Below, one piece after another: positions 2,565 through 10,595 of a stretch of 10,595 bases of DNA (the stretch's first letter is position 1; each line of letters begins with the position of its first letter). The notes beneath the pieces are model-generated. The model saw nothing but the letters and a program-made list of their open reading frames with translations. It ran no database searches and was not told the origin of the DNA. A program made the translations under genes and the position numbers. Source of the stretch: Minisyncoccota bacterium (GTDB lineage: Bacteria; Patescibacteriota; Minisyncoccia; Minisyncoccales; Minisyncoccaceae); NCBI GenBank assembly GCA_028711945.1, contig JAQTRG010000013.1, positions 1 through 10,595 on the forward strand. The letters are read 5' to 3'.

Positions 2565-4026
2565 ATTTTTGAATAGCTTTTTTAATTCTTTTTAATGTTT
2601 CTTCTTTTCCCAATGCTTCCATTAATTCTATCGGACCTGCAGAACTCTTTTTGCCTGTCAAAGAAACTCTTAATGGCCACAAAAGATTACCTCTGTTTTC
2701 CATTTTTTCTGCTTCTGCCAAAAAAATCTTTTCAAGATTCTGCTTCGTATACTCTTCTGCTCCCAAAACAAGTTCGTATGATTTTTCCAAAGAAGCAACC
2801 ACATCTTTGTCTTCCATGGTTTTCCATTTTAACAAATCTTTTTCATATCCTAAATCTTCTTTAAAAAATATATCTACCAACTCAACAATTTCAGAAAGCT
2901 TCTTTAATCTTTCTTGATATAATGATATTGCTTTCTCAATAAATGGAGAAGAAATTTCTTCACTTATCAGCCCTGCTTTTTTCAAATATGGCAGACATCT
3001 TTCTGTAAGCTCTTTGATTGGCATTTTTCTAATATACAAACCATTGACCCAATCCAACTTATCAATATTAAATATAGCTCCTGATTTTTGTATCTTTTCC
3101 AAAGAAAAATCATGAATTAATTCTTCCATTGTATATATTTCTTTTTCTGTTCCAGGATTCCATCCTAAAAAAGCTATAAAGTTAATTAATGCTTCTGGAA
3201 GATATCCTGCCTCTATATATTCATCGATAGAAGTCTTCCCATCTCTTTTCGACATCTTTTTTCTGTCAGCTCCAAGAATTAAAGACAAATGTGCATATCT
3301 AGGAACATCGAATCCCATTGCTTTGATTAATAATATCTGTTTCGGAGTGTTAGGAATATGATCTTCTCCTCTGATAACATAATTTATCTGCATATCAATA
3401 TCATCGACAACACAGGTAAAGTTATACAAATAATTATCAAAATCTTTAGCAATTACGAAATCTCCAATTGTACTAGAATCAACTTCAATTTTTCCTCTAA
3501 TTAAATCGTCAAAAACTATCTTTTCTCCAAATGGAGCTTTAAATCTAATAACTGACCTCTTTCCTTCTTTTAAATATTTTTCAACTGTTTCTTTGTCTAA
3601 ATCTCTACATTTTCCGTTATAAATAGGAGCTTCTCCTATGGACATTAGATATTGTTTTTGTGACTCAACATCTTCTTTAGAACAAAAACAATGATAAGCA
3701 TGCCCTTCTTCAATAAGCTTTTCTAGATATTTTTTGTATATTCCATTTCTTTCGCTCTGTCTGTAGGGATCATGTGGCCCACTCATTTCTGGCCCTTCAT
3801 CCCAATTCATTCCCATCCACTTTAAATTACCCATCAATTGGGTTTCAAATTCTCTCTTTGATCTTTCTTTGTCAGTATCCTCAATTCTTAAAATAAACTT
3901 TCCATTATTTTTCTTAGAAAATAAATAATTGAACAATGCTGTTCTTGCTCCTCCAATATGAAAAGGACCTGTCGGAGACGGCGCATATCTTGTCCTTATT
4001 TCTTTTTCTTCCTTTTTTGCAATCAT
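2557..4026 (-). CDS. gltX: Glutamyl-tRNA synthetase (GltX)
   Basis: Class I aminoacyl-tRNA synthetase that charges tRNA(Glu) with L-glutamate using ATP. In organisms relying on GatCAB it often also charges tRNA(Gln). The length of 489 residues is normal. The N-terminal Rossmann domain carries YAPSPTGPFHIGGARTALF (14-32, HIGH-type motif HIGG at 23-26) and RIEDTD (47-52). A possible zinc site appears as Cys113-x-Cys115 with Tyr136 and Cys140, as in zinc-binding bacterial GluRS. VIRGEDHIPNTPKQ lies at 217-230 and the ATP-binding loop KMSKR at 257-261. The helical anticodon-binding region fills the rest. The start ATG overlaps the murG stop as ATGA, so the two are probably translationally coupled. 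Adjacency to gatC and gatA fits a non-discriminating enzyme, but I cannot decide that from the sequence. Confidence 0.97.
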   Translation of the reverse strand: MIAKKEEKEIRTRYAPSPTGPFHIGGARTALFNYLFSKKNNGKFILRIEDTDKERSKREFETQLMGNLKWMGMNWDEGPEMSGPHDPYRQSERNGIYKKYLEKLIEEGHAYHCFCSKEDVESQKQYLMSIGEAPIYNGKCRDLDKETVEKYLKEGKRSVIRFKAPFGEKIVFDDLIRGKIEVDSSTIGDFVIAKDFDNYLYNFTCVVDDIDMQINYVIRGEDHIPNTPKQILLIKAMGFDVPRYAHLSLILGADRKKMSKRDGKTSIDEYIEAGYLPEALINFIAFLGWNPGTEKEIYTMEELIHDFSLEKIQKSGAIFNIDKLDWVNGLYIRKMPIKELTERCLPYLKKAGLISEEISSPFIEKAISLYQERLKKLSEIVELVDIFFKEDLGYEKDLLKWKTMEDKDVVASLEKSYELVLGAEEYTKQNLEKIFLAEAEKMENRGNLLWPLRVSLTGKKSSAGPIELMEALGKEETLKRIKKAIQKYA

Positions 4027-5141
4027 GATAAATAGTCTAAAATATACTTTGATATTGCATCAGCAGCATCTGGTTTCGAAAAAGCTTCCGCTGATTTTTT
4101 CATTGTTTCTGCATGTACATTTATAACATCTTTTATCTTTTCCAAAAACAAATGATATGTAAAATTACTTTCTTCTAGAACAATACAAGCGCCTGAATCA
4201 GCATAGGCATAAGCATTTTTAACTTGATGATTCTGAGCTGATTCTGGAAGTGGGATAAGGATGCTTGGTTTTTTTAATGCTGCAAGTTCAAATATGCTTC
4301 CTGCTCCAGCCCTAGATATAACACAATCAGCAACAGCATATGCATGCTTTAATTCATTTTCATCTAAAAAGAACGTTGGGTGATAGTATTTTTTAAAATC
4401 ATCTGTAATAAATGCTGCTGACTCTCTCATAACTTTTTTAAAATCTGAAATACCTGTTTGATGTATCACTTCAAATTCTTTTAATAACTCTGGAAGCGTT
4501 TCAAGTATTACCTCATTAATCCTTTCACTACCCTGAGATCCTCCAAACACCAAAATCAATGGCTTGTCAGATATTAATTTAAATATCTTTTTTGCTTCTT
4601 CTTTGTTCCCTTCTGTTAAATTTTTCCTAAACGGATTTCCAGTCTCAATCATTTTTCCTTTAGGAAAATACTCAGTTTTATCTATTGGAAAAGAAACAAA
4701 TATCTTTTCTGAGAACACGCTACAAATTTTATTTGCTAGTCCTGGATCAATATCTGATTCGTGTAAAAATATAGGTATTCTCAATATCCAGCCTGCTATT
4801 ACCACTGGTATCGATCCAAATCCGCCTTTGCTAACGATAACATCTGGCATGGTGAAAAACATTATCGAGAAAGCTTGAAAAATACCGAAAGGAATTTTAA
4901 AGAACAAATCTATAAAATTAAACATTACAGAGCTAAAAGATAAATATCTTCTTATCTTTCCGCAAGAGATATAATATGTTTTTATCTTCTCTTTTCCCAT
5001 GAAAGCAGAAGAGCAAAAATCTTTAGGTCCAATATATGACAAATTTAAATCAAGCCCCTTTTTATTAGCTTCTTGAGCAATGGCAATAATAGGAAAAACA
5101 TGTCCCCCTGTTCCGCCACCTGTAAATAAAATCTTTTTCAT
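4023..5141 (-). CDS. murG: Lipid II synthase, UDP-GlcNAc:lipid I GlcNAc transferase (MurG)
   Basis: Peripheral membrane GT-B glycosyltransferase on the cytoplasmic face. It transfers GlcNAc from UDP-GlcNAc to lipid I, giving lipid II. The 372 residues cover both Rossmann domains. Visible motifs are GGGTGGHVFP (8-17, with His14 at the conserved position), SKGGFGSIPVVIAG (104-117), HESDIDPGLANK (127-138), GGSQGSERINE (200-210), SRAGAGSIFELAA (276-288) and SAQNHQVKNA (301-310, the nucleotide-binding Gln/His stretch). HESDIDPG replaces the more familiar HEQN-type loop. The gene follows ftsW after 38 bases and overlaps gltX by four. Upstream there is a promoter-like element and no correctly spaced Shine-Dalgarno motif (AAGG is one base from the ATG). 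Confidence 0.96.
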   Translation of the reverse strand: MKKILFTGGGTGGHVFPIIAIAQEANKKGLDLNLSYIGPKDFCSSAFMGKEKIKTYYISCGKIRRYLSFSSVMFNFIDLFFKIPFGIFQAFSIMFFTMPDVIVSKGGFGSIPVVIAGWILRIPIFLHESDIDPGLANKICSVFSEKIFVSFPIDKTEYFPKGKMIETGNPFRKNLTEGNKEEAKKIFKLISDKPLILVFGGSQGSERINEVILETLPELLKEFEVIHQTGISDFKKVMRESAAFITDDFKKYYHPTFFLDENELKHAYAVADCVISRAGAGSIFELAALKKPSILIPLPESAQNHQVKNAYAYADSGACIVLEESNFTYHLFLEKIKDVINVHAETMKKSAEAFSKPDAADAISKYILDYLS

Positions 5142-5179: not shown

Positions 5180-6268
5180 TCATCCTTTAGCATGCAAAGA
5201 TGCATTCAAAAGCATTCCGCAACCGATGAGCTCGGCTATTAAATGAGAGCCTCCATAACTGATAAATGGCAAAGGAATTCCAGTCAATGGAACCAAATTA
5301 AGCATTGCACCGATATTAACAAATGCCTGGACAATTATCCAAGAACCGATTCCTATTACAAGCAACCTTAAATATTCATCATTAATCCTCCTAGCTATTG
5401 ATAGAGAAGAATAAAAGAAAATTAAAAACAAAATAATTAAAACTAAACAACCAGCAAATCCAGTTTCTTCTGCAAATATGGCAAAAATAGAATCAGAAAT
5501 TGATTGAGGCAAAAATCCAAACTTTTGTATGCTAAATCCTAAACCAGAACCAAACAATCCTCCAGACCCCACAGAAATCAAAGCCTGATTAATATGATAA
5601 CCAACCCCCAATGTATCTGTCCCTGGGTGTAGATATGTATACAGTCTTTCTATCCTATGGGGAGCAATAAAAATTAACCCTATAAATCCAGCCAAAGCAG
5701 TAAAAAATATCATCAATGTCTGCTTTATCGGCGTTTTGGAACAAAAAAACATTATGAAAGCAATTGAAAACAAAGCGATTAATGTTCCCATATCATTTTG
5801 TAAAAATAATGAAAAGAACACTAGACCACTAATAATTATAAAAGATATAAATTTTCTTCTTTGCTTTTCATTGTTTAATATAGCTGCTAAATATATTATC
5901 ATTGCTATTTTTAAAACCTCAGAAGGTTGAAGGCTACCAAAAAATCCAAGTGACAACCACCTAGTTGCTCCCAACTCTGTTTTACTCAAAGCTGGAACAA
6001 AAACTAAAAGCATAAGAATATATGCTCCAATAAAAATAGGTAAACTCCATTTCTTTAAATTGTGTAATGGAATTTTAAAAGCAACAAATCCCAATAGCAA
6101 TCCTGGTAAAAGTCCCCAAAGCAATTGATGGAACAAATAATAATTAGGGTTATTGGTCACTTTCATTGATAAAGGAACAGAAGATGTGGCTAATGCTAAA
6201 ATACCAATAACAATCAAAATACAAATTGTGACAAAAAGCGTAATGTTTGGAAAATTCTTAATCTTCAT
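5180..6268 (-). CDS. ftsW: SEDS peptidoglycan polymerase / division protein FtsW
   Basis: Polytopic SEDS-family glycosyltransferase that polymerises lipid II; FtsW works at the septum with a class B PBP. The 362 residues hold roughly ten hydrophobic segments. Family signatures are GATRWLSLGFFGSLQPSEVLK (100-120), QNDMGT (157-162, usually QPDLGT), GYHINQALISVGSGGLFGSG (223-242), LPQSISDSIFAIFAEETG (253-270) and PLTGIPLPFISYGGS (327-341). Asp259 in SDSIFA corresponds by hand alignment to the putative catalytic Asp in the usual HTDFIFA loop, with His and Thr changed to Ile and Ser. FtsW is preferred over RodA because of the place between murD and murG. The ATG overlaps the murD stop as ATGA. Confidence 0.93.
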   Translation of the reverse strand: MKIKNFPNITLFVTICILIVIGILALATSSVPLSMKVTNNPNYYLFHQLLWGLLPGLLLGFVAFKIPLHNLKKWSLPIFIGAYILMLLVFVPALSKTELGATRWLSLGFFGSLQPSEVLKIAMIIYLAAILNNEKQRRKFISFIIISGLVFFSLFLQNDMGTLIALFSIAFIMFFCSKTPIKQTLMIFFTALAGFIGLIFIAPHRIERLYTYLHPGTDTLGVGYHINQALISVGSGGLFGSGLGFSIQKFGFLPQSISDSIFAIFAEETGFAGCLVLIILFLIFFYSSLSIARRINDEYLRLLVIGIGSWIIVQAFVNIGAMLNLVPLTGIPLPFISYGGSHLIAELIGCGMLLNASLHAKG

Positions 6269-7578
6269 TTTCCATATTTAATTATAAACTTCTTAAATTG
6301 TTCCCCCCTATCTTTATAGTCAACAAACGTTCCGAAGCTGGGAGACGCAGGAGATAATAAGCATATCTTCCCTGCACTAGTTTTTTGAAAACACTTTTTA
6401 ACAGCATCTTCCATGTTTCCTACAAATACATGTTTAACTTTTCCTTCTCTCTTTTCTACTTCTTTTAATATTCTTTCTCCAGAAGGATTAAAAAGAATTA
6501 AATTCTTGACTTTGCTCTTAACAATTCTTTCTGCCAATTTTCCATGCTTTATCCCCCTATCAAATCCTCCAACAATTAAAGTCTCAACATCATTGCCCAA
6601 TGAATCTAAGGCAAAAATAGCTGCTTCGGGGATGGTAGAGATCGAATCATCATAGAATCTAATTCCATTGTATTCTCCAATAAACTCCAATCGATGAGCT
6701 GGCCTCTTAAATTTCTTAAAAGCTTTGATAATCTTTTCCTCTTTGATTCCTAAAATCTTAAAAACATTCAAAGCTGCTACCAGATTATCAATATGTGTTA
6801 TCTCTAAAAACTCTTGATTATTTTTTAAAAACTTAGAAAAATCATCTGCATTAATTTCAATCTTTTTTGACTTTGCTTTTTCAGCCAAATTCTTAATTTC
6901 TTTAATCTTCGAATTGAAGACAAAGTAATCATCTTTTTTCTGATATTTAACGATATTCGCTTTAGCTAAAAAGTATTCTTTGAAATTCTTGTAATAATCT
7001 AAATGTTCTAGATAAACATTCAAGAACAATCCAATATGTGGACTCTTCTCTAAAGACTGAAGCTGATGAGAAGATAATTCATATACAAAAATATCTTCTT
7101 TTTTAGCATTTAATAAAAAGGACAATGATGGTGTTTCAATGTTGCCAACTAAATATGATTTCATTCCAGCCTCTTTCAAAACAGAATAAATCAAAGAAGA
7201 TGTTGTACTTTTACCCTTAGTTCCAGTTATTCCAATTATCATTCCAGGACAATTATCAAAAAACAATTCAGTCTGACTAGTTACCTTTGTTCTCTTGCTT
7301 AAATACTTTTTAATGGAAGATAAGAGTATTCCTGGAGATTTGATAATAATATCAAAGCCTTTAATGTTTCTTAAATAATCTTCTCCCAAAAACAATTCTA
7401 CTTTTTTGTCTTTTAACAATTTCTTAGTATCAACGCTCAAATCTTCAAACTTCTTTTTGTCAGCGATAAATAAAACTTGTTTGGGAAATATGTGTCTTAA
7501 AAAAACAAAAGAATCGACACCCTCTCTGCCAATTCCCAAAATCAAAACTTTCTTATTTTTTAGTTCTTTTATCTTCAT
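6265..7578 (-). CDS. murD2: MurD2-like UDP-MurNAc-L-Ala:L-glutamate ligase
   Basis: Mur ligase that adds glutamate to UDP-MurNAc-L-Ala with ATP. With the ATG at 7578 it has 437 residues. Motifs are LILGIGREG (12-20), P-loop GITGTKGKSTT (116-126), GNIETPS (145-151), ELSSHQLQ (167-174), NVYLEHLDYY (187-196), likely carbamylated Lys206, HRLEFIGEYNGIRFYDDSIST (295-315), GGFDRG (337-342), LSPASPSFGTF (408-418) and DRG (423-425). GTKGKSTT and DSIST replace the GTNGKST and NDSKATN of classical D-Glu-adding MurD. With a MurL homologue nearby this points to the L-Glu-specific MurD2 subfamily. Ordinary MurD remains possible. An in-frame TTG at 7608 would add ten residues, but it lies on the terminator U-tract and the extra residues do not resemble the family start. 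ftsW overlaps by four bases. Confidence 0.9.
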   Translation of the reverse strand: MKIKELKNKKVLILGIGREGVDSFVFLRHIFPKQVLFIADKKKFEDLSVDTKKLLKDKKVELFLGEDYLRNIKGFDIIIKSPGILLSSIKKYLSKRTKVTSQTELFFDNCPGMIIGITGTKGKSTTSSLIYSVLKEAGMKSYLVGNIETPSLSFLLNAKKEDIFVYELSSHQLQSLEKSPHIGLFLNVYLEHLDYYKNFKEYFLAKANIVKYQKKDDYFVFNSKIKEIKNLAEKAKSKKIEINADDFSKFLKNNQEFLEITHIDNLVAALNVFKILGIKEEKIIKAFKKFKRPAHRLEFIGEYNGIRFYDDSISTIPEAAIFALDSLGNDVETLIVGGFDRGIKHGKLAERIVKSKVKNLILFNPSGERILKEVEKREGKVKHVFVGNMEDAVKKCFQKTSAGKICLLSPASPSFGTFVDYKDRGEQFKKFIIKYGK

Positions 7579-7606
7579 TAGATATAATTTAACATAATTT
7601 AGCAAC

Positions 7607-7642
7607 AAAAAAAAGACCTTTGTTTAATTGCTCGCGGTCTTT
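7607..7642 (-). terminator. Intrinsic terminator after the hydrolase gene
   Basis: On the minus strand AAAGACC (7642-7636) pairs with GGTCTTT (7618-7612) across a 17-base loop. The 3' arm runs into eight consecutive T residues (7614-7607). The 5' arm overlaps the last codons of the hydrolase gene and the stop codon lies in the loop. The loop is long, so the hairpin is of medium strength, but the U-tract and position are right for ending the hydrolase transcript. It stands between the hydrolase and murD2. Confidence 0.6.
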
Positions 7643-8364
7643 ATTTCTGCGAGCTTTTTTTCGACGATACTTACAACCGTGGGTATAGCACTTTTGTCAG
7701 CCTCATCCAATTCGTCTTCGGAAAGACTTTCAACATCTCTTCCGTTGAATGGAAAAAGATGGTGGTTGCACTCGACCGAAGACCCAATCCCATGAGGGTC
7801 GCTTGACCATGATGGAACCGTTGTGTCGTTTTTCCCGCTTATGTAATAAGCATCTTGCGGGATACCATCCTTATTCAACTCTTTAAGGAATTTACTTCCC
7901 CTCAAGAGCTGGCGGAAGGCTGGAACATTGCACACGTATTTGCTTGATAAGACCCATAATAGTGGGCATATCAACAAACCAAGCATCGATCCACCAATTG
8001 ACTTGTAAGTTATCCCAAGATTAGGAGTGCCTACGAGGACCATTTCTCTTGATGGGAAATATCCTTCTGCACAAAGACGCCTTGCAATAACTCCACCCAA
8101 AGAGTGCCCAACAACCATTATCGGAACTCTTGGATAATCAAATTGCGCTTGCAAATAATATCTCAACACTGTGTCCGCATATTGCTCAACGGTCAGGTGC
8201 GATTTAAATTGAGCTAATTTGCCTTTTCCGTCAAGATAGTCCGCAACAACTACCTTTACTCCGAAAATGTTCTCAAGTACTGTTCTGATAAGAGCATTTA
8301 ACCATGCTCCGCTTTCTGACCATCCTTGGATGAGCAGAACGACTAAAAACACTGGCGATGTCAA
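7624..8364 (-). CDS. Alpha/beta-hydrolase, lipase/esterase-like (PGAP1-type)
   Basis: A serine hydrolase of 246 residues; substrate unknown. Strand one VFLVVLLIQGWSES (5-18) supplies the oxyanion region. GHSLGG (86-91) is the nucleophile elbow with Ser88. GTPNLG (112-117) is typical of lipase and PGAP1-like folds. Asp180 in SGKNDTTVP and His201 or His202 in CNHHLFPF complete a plausible triad. A hydrophobic stretch at 124-140 may contact membrane. No signal peptide is evident. The start is TTG at 8364, chosen because a TGA stop lies directly upstream in frame and GGAAGGG stands six bases before it; GTG at codon 5 is an alternative. Six sampled 60-base lines average about 44% GC, against about 26% in sampled neighbours. 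With its own promoter and terminator it looks horizontally acquired and unrelated to the cell-wall operon. Confidence 0.88.
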   Translation of the reverse strand: MTSPVFLVVLLIQGWSESGAWLNALIRTVLENIFGVKVVVADYLDGKGKLAQFKSHLTVEQYADTVLRYYLQAQFDYPRVPIMVVGHSLGGVIARRLCAEGYFPSREMVLVGTPNLGITYKSIGGSMLGLLICPLLWVLSSKYVCNVPAFRQLLRGSKFLKELNKDGIPQDAYYISGKNDTTVPSWSSDPHGIGSSVECNHHLFPFNGRDVESLSEDELDEADKSAIPTVVSIVEKKLAEIKTASN

Positions 8365-8370
8365 TCAAAT

Positions 8371-8377
8371 CCCTTCC
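8371..8377 (-). promoter_or_regulatory. Shine-Dalgarno site for the hydrolase TTG start
   Basis: GGAAGGG lies six bases before the TTG at 8364-8362. It decides the start, because no ATG is suitably placed and an in-frame TGA directly precedes the TTG. It is the only well-spaced purine-rich ribosome site seen before any gene in the window. Confidence 0.7.
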
Positions 8378-8403
8378 AAAAATTAATGTAAAAGAATAAT
8401 CAC

Positions 8404-8432
8404 ATTATAAAATATAATGCTAATTTTGTCAA
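8404..8432 (-). promoter_or_regulatory. Perfect consensus sigma-70-type promoter for the hydrolase
   Basis: On the minus strand TTGACA (8427-8432), a 17-base spacer and TATAAT (8404-8409) match the housekeeping consensus at all twelve positions and at ideal spacing. The expected start lies near 8397, giving a leader of about 30 bases that includes the GGAAGGG ribosome site. It lies in the 89-base gap after the MurL gene and should make the hydrolase strongly and independently transcribed. Confidence 0.85.
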
Positions 8433-8440
8433 ACTAGTTT
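8431..8440. promoter_or_regulatory. Ten-base palindrome touching the -35 box
   Basis: AAACTAGTTT is a perfect inverted repeat whose last two bases on the minus strand are the first two of the TTGACA box. Its position would suit a repressor or activator site. The half-sites are only five bases and AT-rich, so it may be chance. Confidence 0.2.
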
Positions 8441-8453
8441 CCCCCACCCTAAA

Positions 8454-9806
8454 TTAGTCCTTAAAATACTTAGGAATAAAGTTTTTCCTGTTCCAGTGAT
8501 CCATTGCCTCGATAGACATATTCTCCCAATTCTTGTGCTTAGGCAAAATACTCTTTTCAAAGTATCTTAATAACACTGGAAGTCCTCCTTCTTTTTTATA
8601 ACACAAATACATCGCAACCAATGCTTCTTTTCTAGTTCCCACACACTCAAACGGCTTTACCTTCTTCTCCCCTATTAATTCTTTCAAAGTTTCTAATAAT
8701 TCTTTTTTCTCAAACAAATCTTGTCCAAAAATTGAAAGAAGCTCTTCTTTAGAAATAAACGGGCAGAGAATCATATAAACAAACAAGCACTTAGAACATG
8801 CTCCACACCACTTCCCTGCCTTTTTCTTTATTCCTGAATATGTTTTTTGTGATTCATTGCAACTCAAAAACACTGGAAAATAATCTTTCATGTAAGAAAA
8901 GATGCGAGCAATCTGTATTTCATACAATAATCTTAAAACGCTAAAATATTCTAAATCATTAACCAGATATTCAGAACAATATTTCCTAAATTTATTCTCA
9001 AAATCATATGTTTTAGAATATTGATGATTAATTTCTTTTCCCAACCATTTAACGTTTCCTTCATTAGAGCTATCTTCGTTTGAAAAGACAATATACTTTT
9101 TGTTAAATAAAACTGAAACTAAAACGGTTAAAAATGAAAGATAAGCAACAAAAGGAGTGTGCCCATTTAAATATCCTTTTCTATTCATTTGAAGCAGCTT
9201 GTCTTCAATCTTTCTTTCACAAACAATCATTCTGCCGTATCCAAAAACCTTAAACATGTCTACAGTGTTTGATGTAGGATTCAAACTAAAACAATCAACA
9301 TCTTTGCTAAACTTTTTCATTAGCTCTAATGTAACAGCTGAATCTTTGCCTCCTCCAACTGGAATCAATATCCCTTTCCTAGACACTTTTCCTTTTTTAA
9401 CCTTCCCTTTGCCTTCTGAAATTATTTCTATAAAATCAGAAGCAGTGAAATTAATCTTGTTTTCATAGAAGAACTGGCCCATTCCATTAATTAAAATATC
9501 TTTCCACCAATTTATCTGTTTCTTGTCCAACTTCCCTGCTCTAACAATTATCCTTTTTGAACAAGTTGCTTTCCAATAAGAAAACATTTCTATCATTCCT
9601 AAATTAAAAACCAAATTATCCAAAACAGAAGAATCTGTTTTCTTAAAATCTTTTAAAGAAATATCTTTGATGACAACGCAAGGATTAAATTCTATCTCTT
9701 TTGTTCTAAAACAAAAAGAAATAACAAGGTCGCTCCCCTTAATTTCGTAGTCGAACTTTTCATAAGAAAAGGTTGGATATTTATTTCTTAAATCTTTAAA
9801 TGTCAT
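8454..9806 (-). CDS. murL: UDP-MurNAc-L-Ala-L-Glu epimerase (MurL)
   Basis: MurL, known from Xanthomonas oryzae, uses ATP to invert the terminal L-Glu of UDP-MurNAc-L-Ala-L-Glu to D-Glu, working with MurD2. This 450-residue protein has the expected build. After an N-terminal domain of about 140 residues comes a PP-loop, PVGGGKDSAVTLELMKKF (149-166), the adenylating motif of PP-loop ATPases. It is followed by NGHTPFVAYLSF (214-225), SNEDSSNEGN (242-251) and NHQYSKTYDFE (260-270), then CNES (316-319) and a KWCGACSKC cluster (Cys334, 337, 340). These match my memory of the MurL pattern; tRNA-thiolating or QueC-type PP-loop enzymes are much shorter and lack the NHQYSK segment. The ATG overlaps the mraY stop as ATGA, tying it to cell-wall synthesis. 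The cysteines could bind metal; that is inference. Confidence 0.87.
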   Translation of the reverse strand: MTFKDLRNKYPTFSYEKFDYEIKGSDLVISFCFRTKEIEFNPCVVIKDISLKDFKKTDSSVLDNLVFNLGMIEMFSYWKATCSKRIIVRAGKLDKKQINWWKDILINGMGQFFYENKINFTASDFIEIISEGKGKVKKGKVSRKGILIPVGGGKDSAVTLELMKKFSKDVDCFSLNPTSNTVDMFKVFGYGRMIVCERKIEDKLLQMNRKGYLNGHTPFVAYLSFLTVLVSVLFNKKYIVFSNEDSSNEGNVKWLGKEINHQYSKTYDFENKFRKYCSEYLVNDLEYFSVLRLLYEIQIARIFSYMKDYFPVFLSCNESQKTYSGIKKKAGKWCGACSKCLFVYMILCPFISKEELLSIFGQDLFEKKELLETLKELIGEKKVKPFECVGTRKEALVAMYLCYKKEGGLPVLLRYFEKSILPKHKNWENMSIEAMDHWNRKNFIPKYFKD

Positions 9807-10595
9807 CTAGCTAATTGTATTGAAATTCCTAAAATAGCGCAAACTATACTAATAATCCAAAACCTCATAGTAATCTGAGGCTGTTTCCATCCAAGTGCTT
9901 CCAAATGATGATGAATTGGAGTAGACATCCAAATCTTTTTGCCCCTAAACTTTTTAGATAATAATTGAACAATAACTGAACCTGTTTCAATCACTAAAAC
10001 TCCTCCTATTATCGGTAACACTGCAACTGAGTCAGTAATAAAAGCAATAGCAGTCATGGTCATGGTTAATCCAAGTATTCCTGTTTCTCCCATATAAAAC
10101 TTAGCTGGTGGGATATTAAACCACAAAAAACTGAACAATGCTCCAAATATAGCAGCACAAAGAGTAGCAAGATCTGCTTGCCCTTGAGCTAAAGCAATAA
10201 TCGCAAAAGCTCCGAAGATGGCACTAAAAACTCCCCCAGCAAGTCCATCAATTCCATCAACCACTCCACTTGCCCAAGAAGCAAGACTAACTATTACATA
10301 TAAAACAACAAAAATTATTCCTAAATGCAAATCTATTCCATGTGGAAAATTATATATCAAAGGAATATGTATTGAATCCCATCCTAATTTGTAATACAAC
10401 CAAAATCCTCCAACCAAACCAATCATGCTAACAAGGGCTAAGCGAATTCTGAACATTAATCCTCCTCCAATATATTTTCCTGTCCCATAAACAACTGAAA
10501 TATCATCGATAAGACCGATAATTGAAGCTGTGATTAAAGCAAACAAAGGAATCCATGTTTCATCTCTTGAAATAAAGTTTAATTTATCAATCCAC
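9803..10595 (-). CDS. mraY: Phospho-MurNAc-pentapeptide transferase (MraY), 5' end outside window
   Basis: Integral membrane enzyme that moves phospho-MurNAc-pentapeptide from UDP to undecaprenyl phosphate, making lipid I. The open frame continues without a stop to the window edge, so the N-terminus, probably around 60-100 residues, is missing. The TTG at 10546 is an internal Leu. Seen in order are GLIDD (Asp pair at 10502-10507), VDGIDGLAGG (near 10258), FLWFNIPPAKFYMGETG (near 10085-10130) and PIHHHLEALGW (near 9890-9920), with many hydrophobic helices. Against E. coli MraY, the Asn of NLTDGLDG is Gly here and the Asp of MGDVGS (Asp267 in E. coli) is Glu. The histidine loop is intact and the rest aligns well, so MraY is preferred over WecA-type relatives. 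Confidence 0.94.
   Translation of the reverse strand, partial: WIDKLNFISRDETWIPLFALITASIIGLIDDISVVYGTGKYIGGGLMFRIRLALVSMIGLVGGFWLYYKLGWDSIHIPLIYNFPHGIDLHLGIIFVVLYVIVSLASWASGVVDGIDGLAGGVFSAIFGAFAIIALAQGQADLATLCAAIFGALFSFLWFNIPPAKFYMGETGILGLTMTMTAIAFITDSVAVLPIIGGVLVIETGSVIVQLLSKKFRGKKIWMSTPIHHHLEALGWKQPQITMRFWIISIVCAILGISIQLAR

Follow-up and report, generated by a model that had tools for sequence, protein, structure and literature searches.

In Xanthomonas oryzae, peptidoglycan D-glutamate (D-Glu) is made in two reactions by MurD2 and MurL (XOO_1320 / XOO_1319). Both reactions have been reported, and orthologues from Micromonospora and Salinispora were confirmed in vitro, according to a review (PMC8788868). 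The review dates the pathway from a 2017 paper, places it in some gamma- and alphaproteobacterial genera and rare actinobacteria, and reports no D-Glu-forming genes in X. oryzae; another article mentions orthologues of low similarity in cyanobacteria, a fungus, and an amoeba (PMC5808125). The canonical system, found in Escherichia coli and others, consists of MurI and MurD. Here, we analyzed a 10,595-nucleotide stretch of DNA (the window) from a Minisyncoccota bacterium, in which a murL-like and a murD-like gene lie between mraY and ftsW. By homology, this pair most probably makes peptidoglycan D-Glu on the precursor (probability about 0.9), a reading based on homology, a residue signature in the ligase, gene order, co-occurrence, mutual exclusion with MurI, and the predicted fold.

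The two products belong to the same protein families as XOO_1320 and XOO_1319. At the corresponding locus of Xanthomonas sacchari (L232), murL is directly upstream of the ligase gene, and its products share with those of the window the Pfam pair and five ligase residues described below. In contrast, identity to the X. sacchari proteins is only 31% for MurL (across 326 residues) and 26% for the ligase, a hydrolase gene separates murL from murD2 in the window, and the X. sacchari pair has an aspartate kinase/diaminopimelate decarboxylase gene nearby upstream. The host also differs, being a small-genome patescibacterium for which function is assigned by homology.

The identification of the first product as MurL in the original prediction was supported by our searches. 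The protein matched NF041275 (MurL_Xanthmoales) over residues 43 to 447 with 259.5 bits, short of the curated cut-off of 700 bits of what is, by its name, a model for one order, Xanthomonadales. The PF26298 and PF26299 domains were found on the window protein (P0001), on 119 of the 120 relatives listed (P0089, which is partial, has the second only), and on all 120 Xanthomonas/Stenotrophomonas-type proteins listed for X. sacchari MurL. In a protein database of 5.8 billion sequences, 7964 of 8000 scored candidates matched at ≤1e-10. All four motifs that had been pointed out, PVGGGKDS, SNEDSSNEGN, NHQYSKTYDFE, and KWCGACSKC, are present in the ORF, and GGGKDS, NRxGxxNGHxP, FSNExS, NHQxSKxxxFE, SCN, WCGxCxKC, and KPFECVG are common to the X. 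sacchari and window proteins. Residues G152, G153, K154, and D155 are invariant in a 36-row alignment, as are C316, C334, C337, and C340; C316 and the WCGACSKC cysteines possibly form a four-Cys metal site. A chance or mis-called ORF was ruled out by 79% identity in a related genome (G007) and by open frames in most relatives. As had been suspected, MurL is misnamed in related genomes, since most of the 120 listed relatives that carry a source's name are called "hypothetical protein." One (P0099) is labeled queuosine 7-cyano-7-deazaguanine synthase by JGI; another (P0012) was named correctly by JGI, and annotation pipelines therefore partly know MurL.

MurL contains a PP-loop motif and a predicted PP-loop (QueC/QatC-like) fold. 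The best structural neighbors of the MurL model were QatC-type and QueC proteins, with 9 to 13% identity in structural alignments; QueC aligned only to model residues 143 to 440, and substrate and pathway differ. A sequence search for a solved MurL structure returned only two weak matches, both chains of TtuA PH0300 (E = 0.022). Classification as a generic PP-loop or queuosine enzyme was rejected, as the motifs and domains are those of MurL. QueC chemistry consists of adenylation followed by the use of ammonia, and a MurL-fold enzyme could in this manner amidate, or otherwise modify, the carboxylate of the precursor glutamate without being an epimerase. The structural neighbors and the queuosine label of P0099 fit that proposal, but L-Glu added by an L-Glu-type ligase would then stay unepimerized, and its motifs and domains match those of the MurL family that has been assayed, which makes amidation hardly credible.

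The ligase is a clear MurD homologue that exceeds the TIGR01087 cut-off of 211.95 bits, and it keeps the P-loop, His184, and Lys199 (full-length E. coli numbering) of the canonical enzyme. The GTKGKSTT and DSIST motifs noted earlier are both in this ORF, and both also occur in X. sacchari MurD2. With 25% identity to E. coli MurD, close to the value for MurD2, the two types are, judging from the sequences, told apart by residues and not by overall identity. The review lists E. coli MurD D182, K348, A414, and L416 versus Xanthomonas MurD2 E197, R358, P433, and F435 as differing positions; it further states that Xanthomonas MurD2 became a D-Glu ligase after the E197D/R358K double change and that E. 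coli MurD accepts L-Glu after the K319T change (PMC8788868). Alignment to E. coli MurD (L021) showed that the window ligase has E, I, R, P, and F at D182, K319, K348, A414, and L416, where E. coli has D, K, K, A, and L. The X. sacchari enzyme has the identical five letters, and this exact match at the stereochoice positions supports a ligase of the MurD2 type, as had been predicted.

We then searched genomes for the components of the canonical route. The window is contig C27 of a 0.53-Mb patescibacterial (Paceibacterota-type) genome, G000 (530,532 bases in 88 contigs), in agreement with the proposed placement in the candidate phyla radiation. Unlike in the canonical system, no MurI was found in G000, which had no PF01177, TIGR00067, or TIGR01121 match; the suggested absence of murI, and that of a D-amino acid transaminase match, was thus observed in an assembly whose completeness of 86.39% keeps the result from being final. 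Among 40 members of the order (G000 included; 24 of them ≥90% complete), 32 had a MurL match and none a glutamate racemase over cut-off, with a 24.8-bit match in G003 alone. The survey was extended to 286 genomes sampled from the phylum, of which 45 matched the MurL profile and 44 were kept (G193 was dropped as weak, E = 8.9e-11). TIGR00067 (MurI) was over cut-off in 73 genomes, all of them among the 242 others and none among the 44 with MurL, and 16 intermediate matches likewise all fell outside the MurL genomes (Fisher p = 8.7e-7 for the exclusion, under the assumption, not true here, that genomes are independent). D-Amino-acid transaminase was over cut-off in none of the 286.

The residue at K348 followed the same division. 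The 61 phylum MurL loci (the window, 43 from the sampled genomes, and 17 with flanks from among the other 31 MurL genomes of the order) yielded 56 distinct ligases after removal of L038 as a duplicate of L093 from 57 rows, and 55 were readable at this position, L078 lying at a contig end. Arg was found in 52, Lys in two (L062 and L069), and Asp in one (L086); because a single, weakly supported clade holds most of the MurD2-type ligases, these are not 52 independent events, a point that counts against our reading. All 69 ligases from genomes without MurL, which were chosen nonrandomly from the higher-ranking TIGR01087 matches, had Lys. Behind these 69, MurI was over cut-off in 33 cases, intermediate in two (G155 and G261), and neither in 34. 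Two other candidate markers were rejected: Glu at D182 also occurs in 19 of the 69, and a non-Lys residue at K319, found in 68 of them, is not diagnostic. Among named loci, i.e., the best 80 of at least 567 confirmed relatives, from species genomes, 68 ligases comprised 62 with Arg, one with Lys (L194), and five unreadable.

The two genes are closely associated. In all 17 fetched relatives, mraY precedes murL; all 17 stretches contain MurD, and murL is followed by murD and then ftsW in 14, the other three ending in murD. In the phylum sample, 38 of 43 loci have murD in the fetched stretch, as murL then murD (23), murD then murL (7), or a single ORF (8). The one-ORF fusions (L055, L060, L067, L073, L078, L079, L082, and L085) are 731 to 907 residues long with MurL in front; L078 is broken off at a contig end, and two fusions were checked with NCBIfam. 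Further cases among the named loci are L183 (Woesebacteria) and L205 (Bacteroidales), and L186 is apparently the same contig as L079. The ligases encoded upstream of murL in L062, L063, L066, L069, L072, L074, and L086 have Lys, Arg, or Asp at 348. The MurL proteins of these seven loci are divergent, have a less certain function, and all lie outside the main MurL group in a tree of 97 of 141 rows, from which L078, L108, and L152 had been excluded in advance.

A natural exchange was suggested by two genomes, G306 and G314. In a ligase tree of 142 rows, 16 of them from named loci, built after removal of the five trait columns, the MurL label requires three changes, two of them forced by starred branches; an independent-pairs test found only two pairs on such branches, too few for significance. 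The ligase of G306 (L236) is placed among those of the MurI genomes G314 (L235) and G161 (SH-aLRT 98 and 96). It is 52% identical to the G314 ligase, with residues E, L, R, A, F versus E, F, K, A, F; it thus has Arg at the position where its relatives from MurI genomes have Lys. G306 has murL where G314 has murI, directly before murD. Upstream, three ORFs are 76, 72, and 69% identical, the third being inverted, and a short ORF on the opposite strand, immediately in front, is 46% identical; these and three downstream ORFs occur in the same order, with further ORFs separating murD from the downstream set in G306. In the MurL tree, the G306 protein falls in a group (95) that also contains four fusion lineages and L081, which is not fused. 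We read this as the replacement of murI by an acquired murL together with a Lys-to-Arg change, in which both the direction and the acquisition are what we infer. A racemase-superfamily gene near the G306 locus is present as two ORFs (approximately 4559 to 5262 of L236) and is apparently broken.

These data also bear on a rival explanation, in which the ligase is an ordinary D-Glu-adding MurD whose Arg, like that of streptococci, is neutral; D-Glu would be acquired from neighbors or hosts, and the MurL homologue would have a different substrate. Arg at 348 is known in D-Glu ligases, namely, Streptococcus mutans MurD, described in the review as using D-Glu (PMC8788868), and the PDB 3lk7 MurD, which reads GGLDRG; Arg at 348 alone is not sufficient for L-Glu choice. 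A scavenger of D-amino acids would fit the lack of alr in all 40 members of the order and of ddl over cut-off in 38, and MurL-like proteins without a nearby murD do exist, on Pseudonocardia plasmids (L233 and L234). Yet the window ligase matches X. sacchari MurD2 at all five stereochoice positions and not at Arg alone, and Lys is kept in all 69 ligases read from genomes without MurL, including the 34 from expected scavengers (no over-cut-off or intermediate MurI). Moreover, murL stays adjacent or fused to murD, and in G306 it occupies the murI slot with Arg for Lys. Together, these observations leave the neutral-Arg explanation quite improbable. In L233 and L234, the gene for the MurL-like protein is convergent with a large WD40-repeat gene, and its product may act on something other than a peptidoglycan precursor.

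Besides Arg in D-Glu ligases, several observations weigh against D-Glu formation by the window pair. One is the missed NF041275 cut-off. A MurL-like Pseudonocardia plasmid protein, for which the 11 kb of sequence examined contained no murD, outscores the window MurL with 323.1 bits, so the score is no proof of function; it fails to separate likely MurL enzymes from orphans (X. sacchari MurL, 836.5 bits; a Bacteroidales homologue, 262.9; the G306 homologue, 341.3). Four MurL-associated ligases have Lys or Asp at 348 (L062, L069, and L086 in the sample; L194 among named loci), and no murD was in the stretch in 5 of 43 phylum loci and 12 of the best 80 named loci. Within the 44 MurL genomes, a TIGR00067 match under 60 bits occurred in 10, a PF01177 Asp/Glu-racemase-superfamily protein in 12, and a D-amino-acid-transaminase match below cut-off in five. 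Finally, the missing murI is less telling because the 40 order members also lack alr.

Under the pathway reading, MurD2 would attach L-Glu to UDP-N-acetylmuramoyl-L-alanine (UDP-MurNAc-L-Ala). MurL, as a PP-loop ATP pyrophosphatase of the QueC/QatC fold, would adenylate the alpha-carboxylate of the attached L-Glu, and adenylation would acidify the alpha-hydrogen, which could then leave and be re-added from the opposite face to give D-Glu. The authors of the review put forward the adenylate mechanism as a hypothesis (PMC8788868). We infer that the patescibacterial pair would run the same two reactions as the Xanthomonas pair; by homology, the predicted synthesis of D-Glu on the precursor is supported by the identity of MurL, the MurD2 residues, and the missing murI and transaminase matches.

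Alanine racemase and D-Ala-D-Ala ligase were searched for in the same 40 genomes. TIGR00492 (alr) had no match in any of them. TIGR01205 (Ddl) was over cut-off in G022 and G036, reached 206.5 of 245.65 bits in G029, and gave weak matches in 21 more, the best at 53.1 bits; G022, G029, and G036 have no MurL. The match in G000 (C46, 43.1 bits) was rejected as a D-Ala-D-Ala ligase, since the 510-residue ORF reads as a biotin carboxylase beside carboxylase and biotin-ligase genes. G000 has MurE over cut-off, a transpeptidase (penicillin-binding) domain, FemAB, and two more Mur-ligase proteins whose Pfam domains and motifs point to MurC and MurF. It is conceivable, if rather doubtful, that the standard makers of free D-amino acids for the wall are gone from this order and that stereochemistry is set wholly on UDP-linked precursors, with D-Glu made by MurL and the terminal residues imported as a ready dipeptide, made by an unrecognized route, or replaced. 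A literature search on the D-Ala end gave no lead among the papers listed. The MurF-like ligase of G000 (L247, 4898 to 6610; 570 residues) has a long N-terminal extension, membrane-spanning by appearance; its gene is followed by one for a DegT-family aminotransferase and, further on, by a FemAB-family gene and an FtsQ-type POTRA gene.

The pathway is known, and its spread is much wider than the review states (PMC8788868). In openly licensed literature, no listed title or abstract start linked MurL or MurD2 to these lineages. Pairs of murL and murD with an Arg ligase include L170, L177, L182, L184, L188, L195, and L196, from genomes titled Anammoxibacter, Acidobacteria, Bacteroidales, Bacilli, Mycoplasma, Delongbacteria, and Clostridia. 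The review describes MurD2-MurL as limited to relatively few genera and promotes it as a narrow-spectrum drug target (PMC8788868). Given that about one-seventh of the patescibacterial genomes sampled have the pair, which is also found in Bacteroidales, Clostridia, and Bacilli, that premise needs revision. A likely function can be given to many "hypothetical proteins," and Arg or Lys at 348 becomes a candidate genomic marker of the glutamate isomer used by MurD. G306 and G314 together resemble a switch made by nature, and the naturally fused MurL-MurD2 proteins provide structural studies with an enzyme in one chain.

The features of the window are collected in Table 1. On the minus strand, the cell-wall genes run mraY, murL, the alpha/beta hydrolase gene, murD2, ftsW, and murG, followed by gltX, gatC, and gatA, which were named from their own sequence, with no search.

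Table 1. Positions of features in the window, with supporting evidence.
Feature	Position	Strand	Evidence or remark
mraY	9803..10595 (ORF 9803-10594, open at window edge)	-	Stop 9803-9805; TIGR00445 E=1.3e-47, PF00953
murL-like ORF	8454..9806	-	450 aa; NF041275 E=4.4e-77
PP-loop motif PVGGGKDS of MurL, residues 149-156	9339..9362	-	Sequence
WCGACSKC motif of MurL, residues 333-340	8787..8810	-	Sequence
Sigma-70-like promoter, in front of hydrolase	8404..8432	-	12/12 consensus bases; consensus match only
Alpha/beta hydrolase ORF (GHSLGG), between murL and murD2	7624..8364	-	PF01674 24.6 bits, cut-off 20.3
murD2	6265..7578 (ORF 6265-7608)	-	437 aa from ATG 7578; TIGR01087 308.6 bits
ftsW-type gene	5180..6268	-	PF01098 E=2.4e-89; TIGR02614 323.2 bits, under 337.5 cut-off
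murG	4023..5141	-	TIGR01133 259.3 bits, over 250.25 cut-off

The four-base overlap of murL with mraY given in the original prediction (9803 to 9806) was found, and murD2 and ftsW overlap to the same extent (6265 to 6268). The Mur ligase gene is the next cell-wall gene after murL, as stated there, although the hydrolase ORF intervenes. For murD2, the ATG at 7578 is a more likely start than the TTG at 7608. A putative terminator after the hydrolase gene, seen by eye at 7607 to 7641, was not called by a terminator scan and is not claimed. The hydrolase has no known part in the pathway; its ORF has a GC content of 0.438, versus 0.298 to 0.350 in seven other genes, and L095, L103, and L155 also have a similar ORF separating murL from murD.

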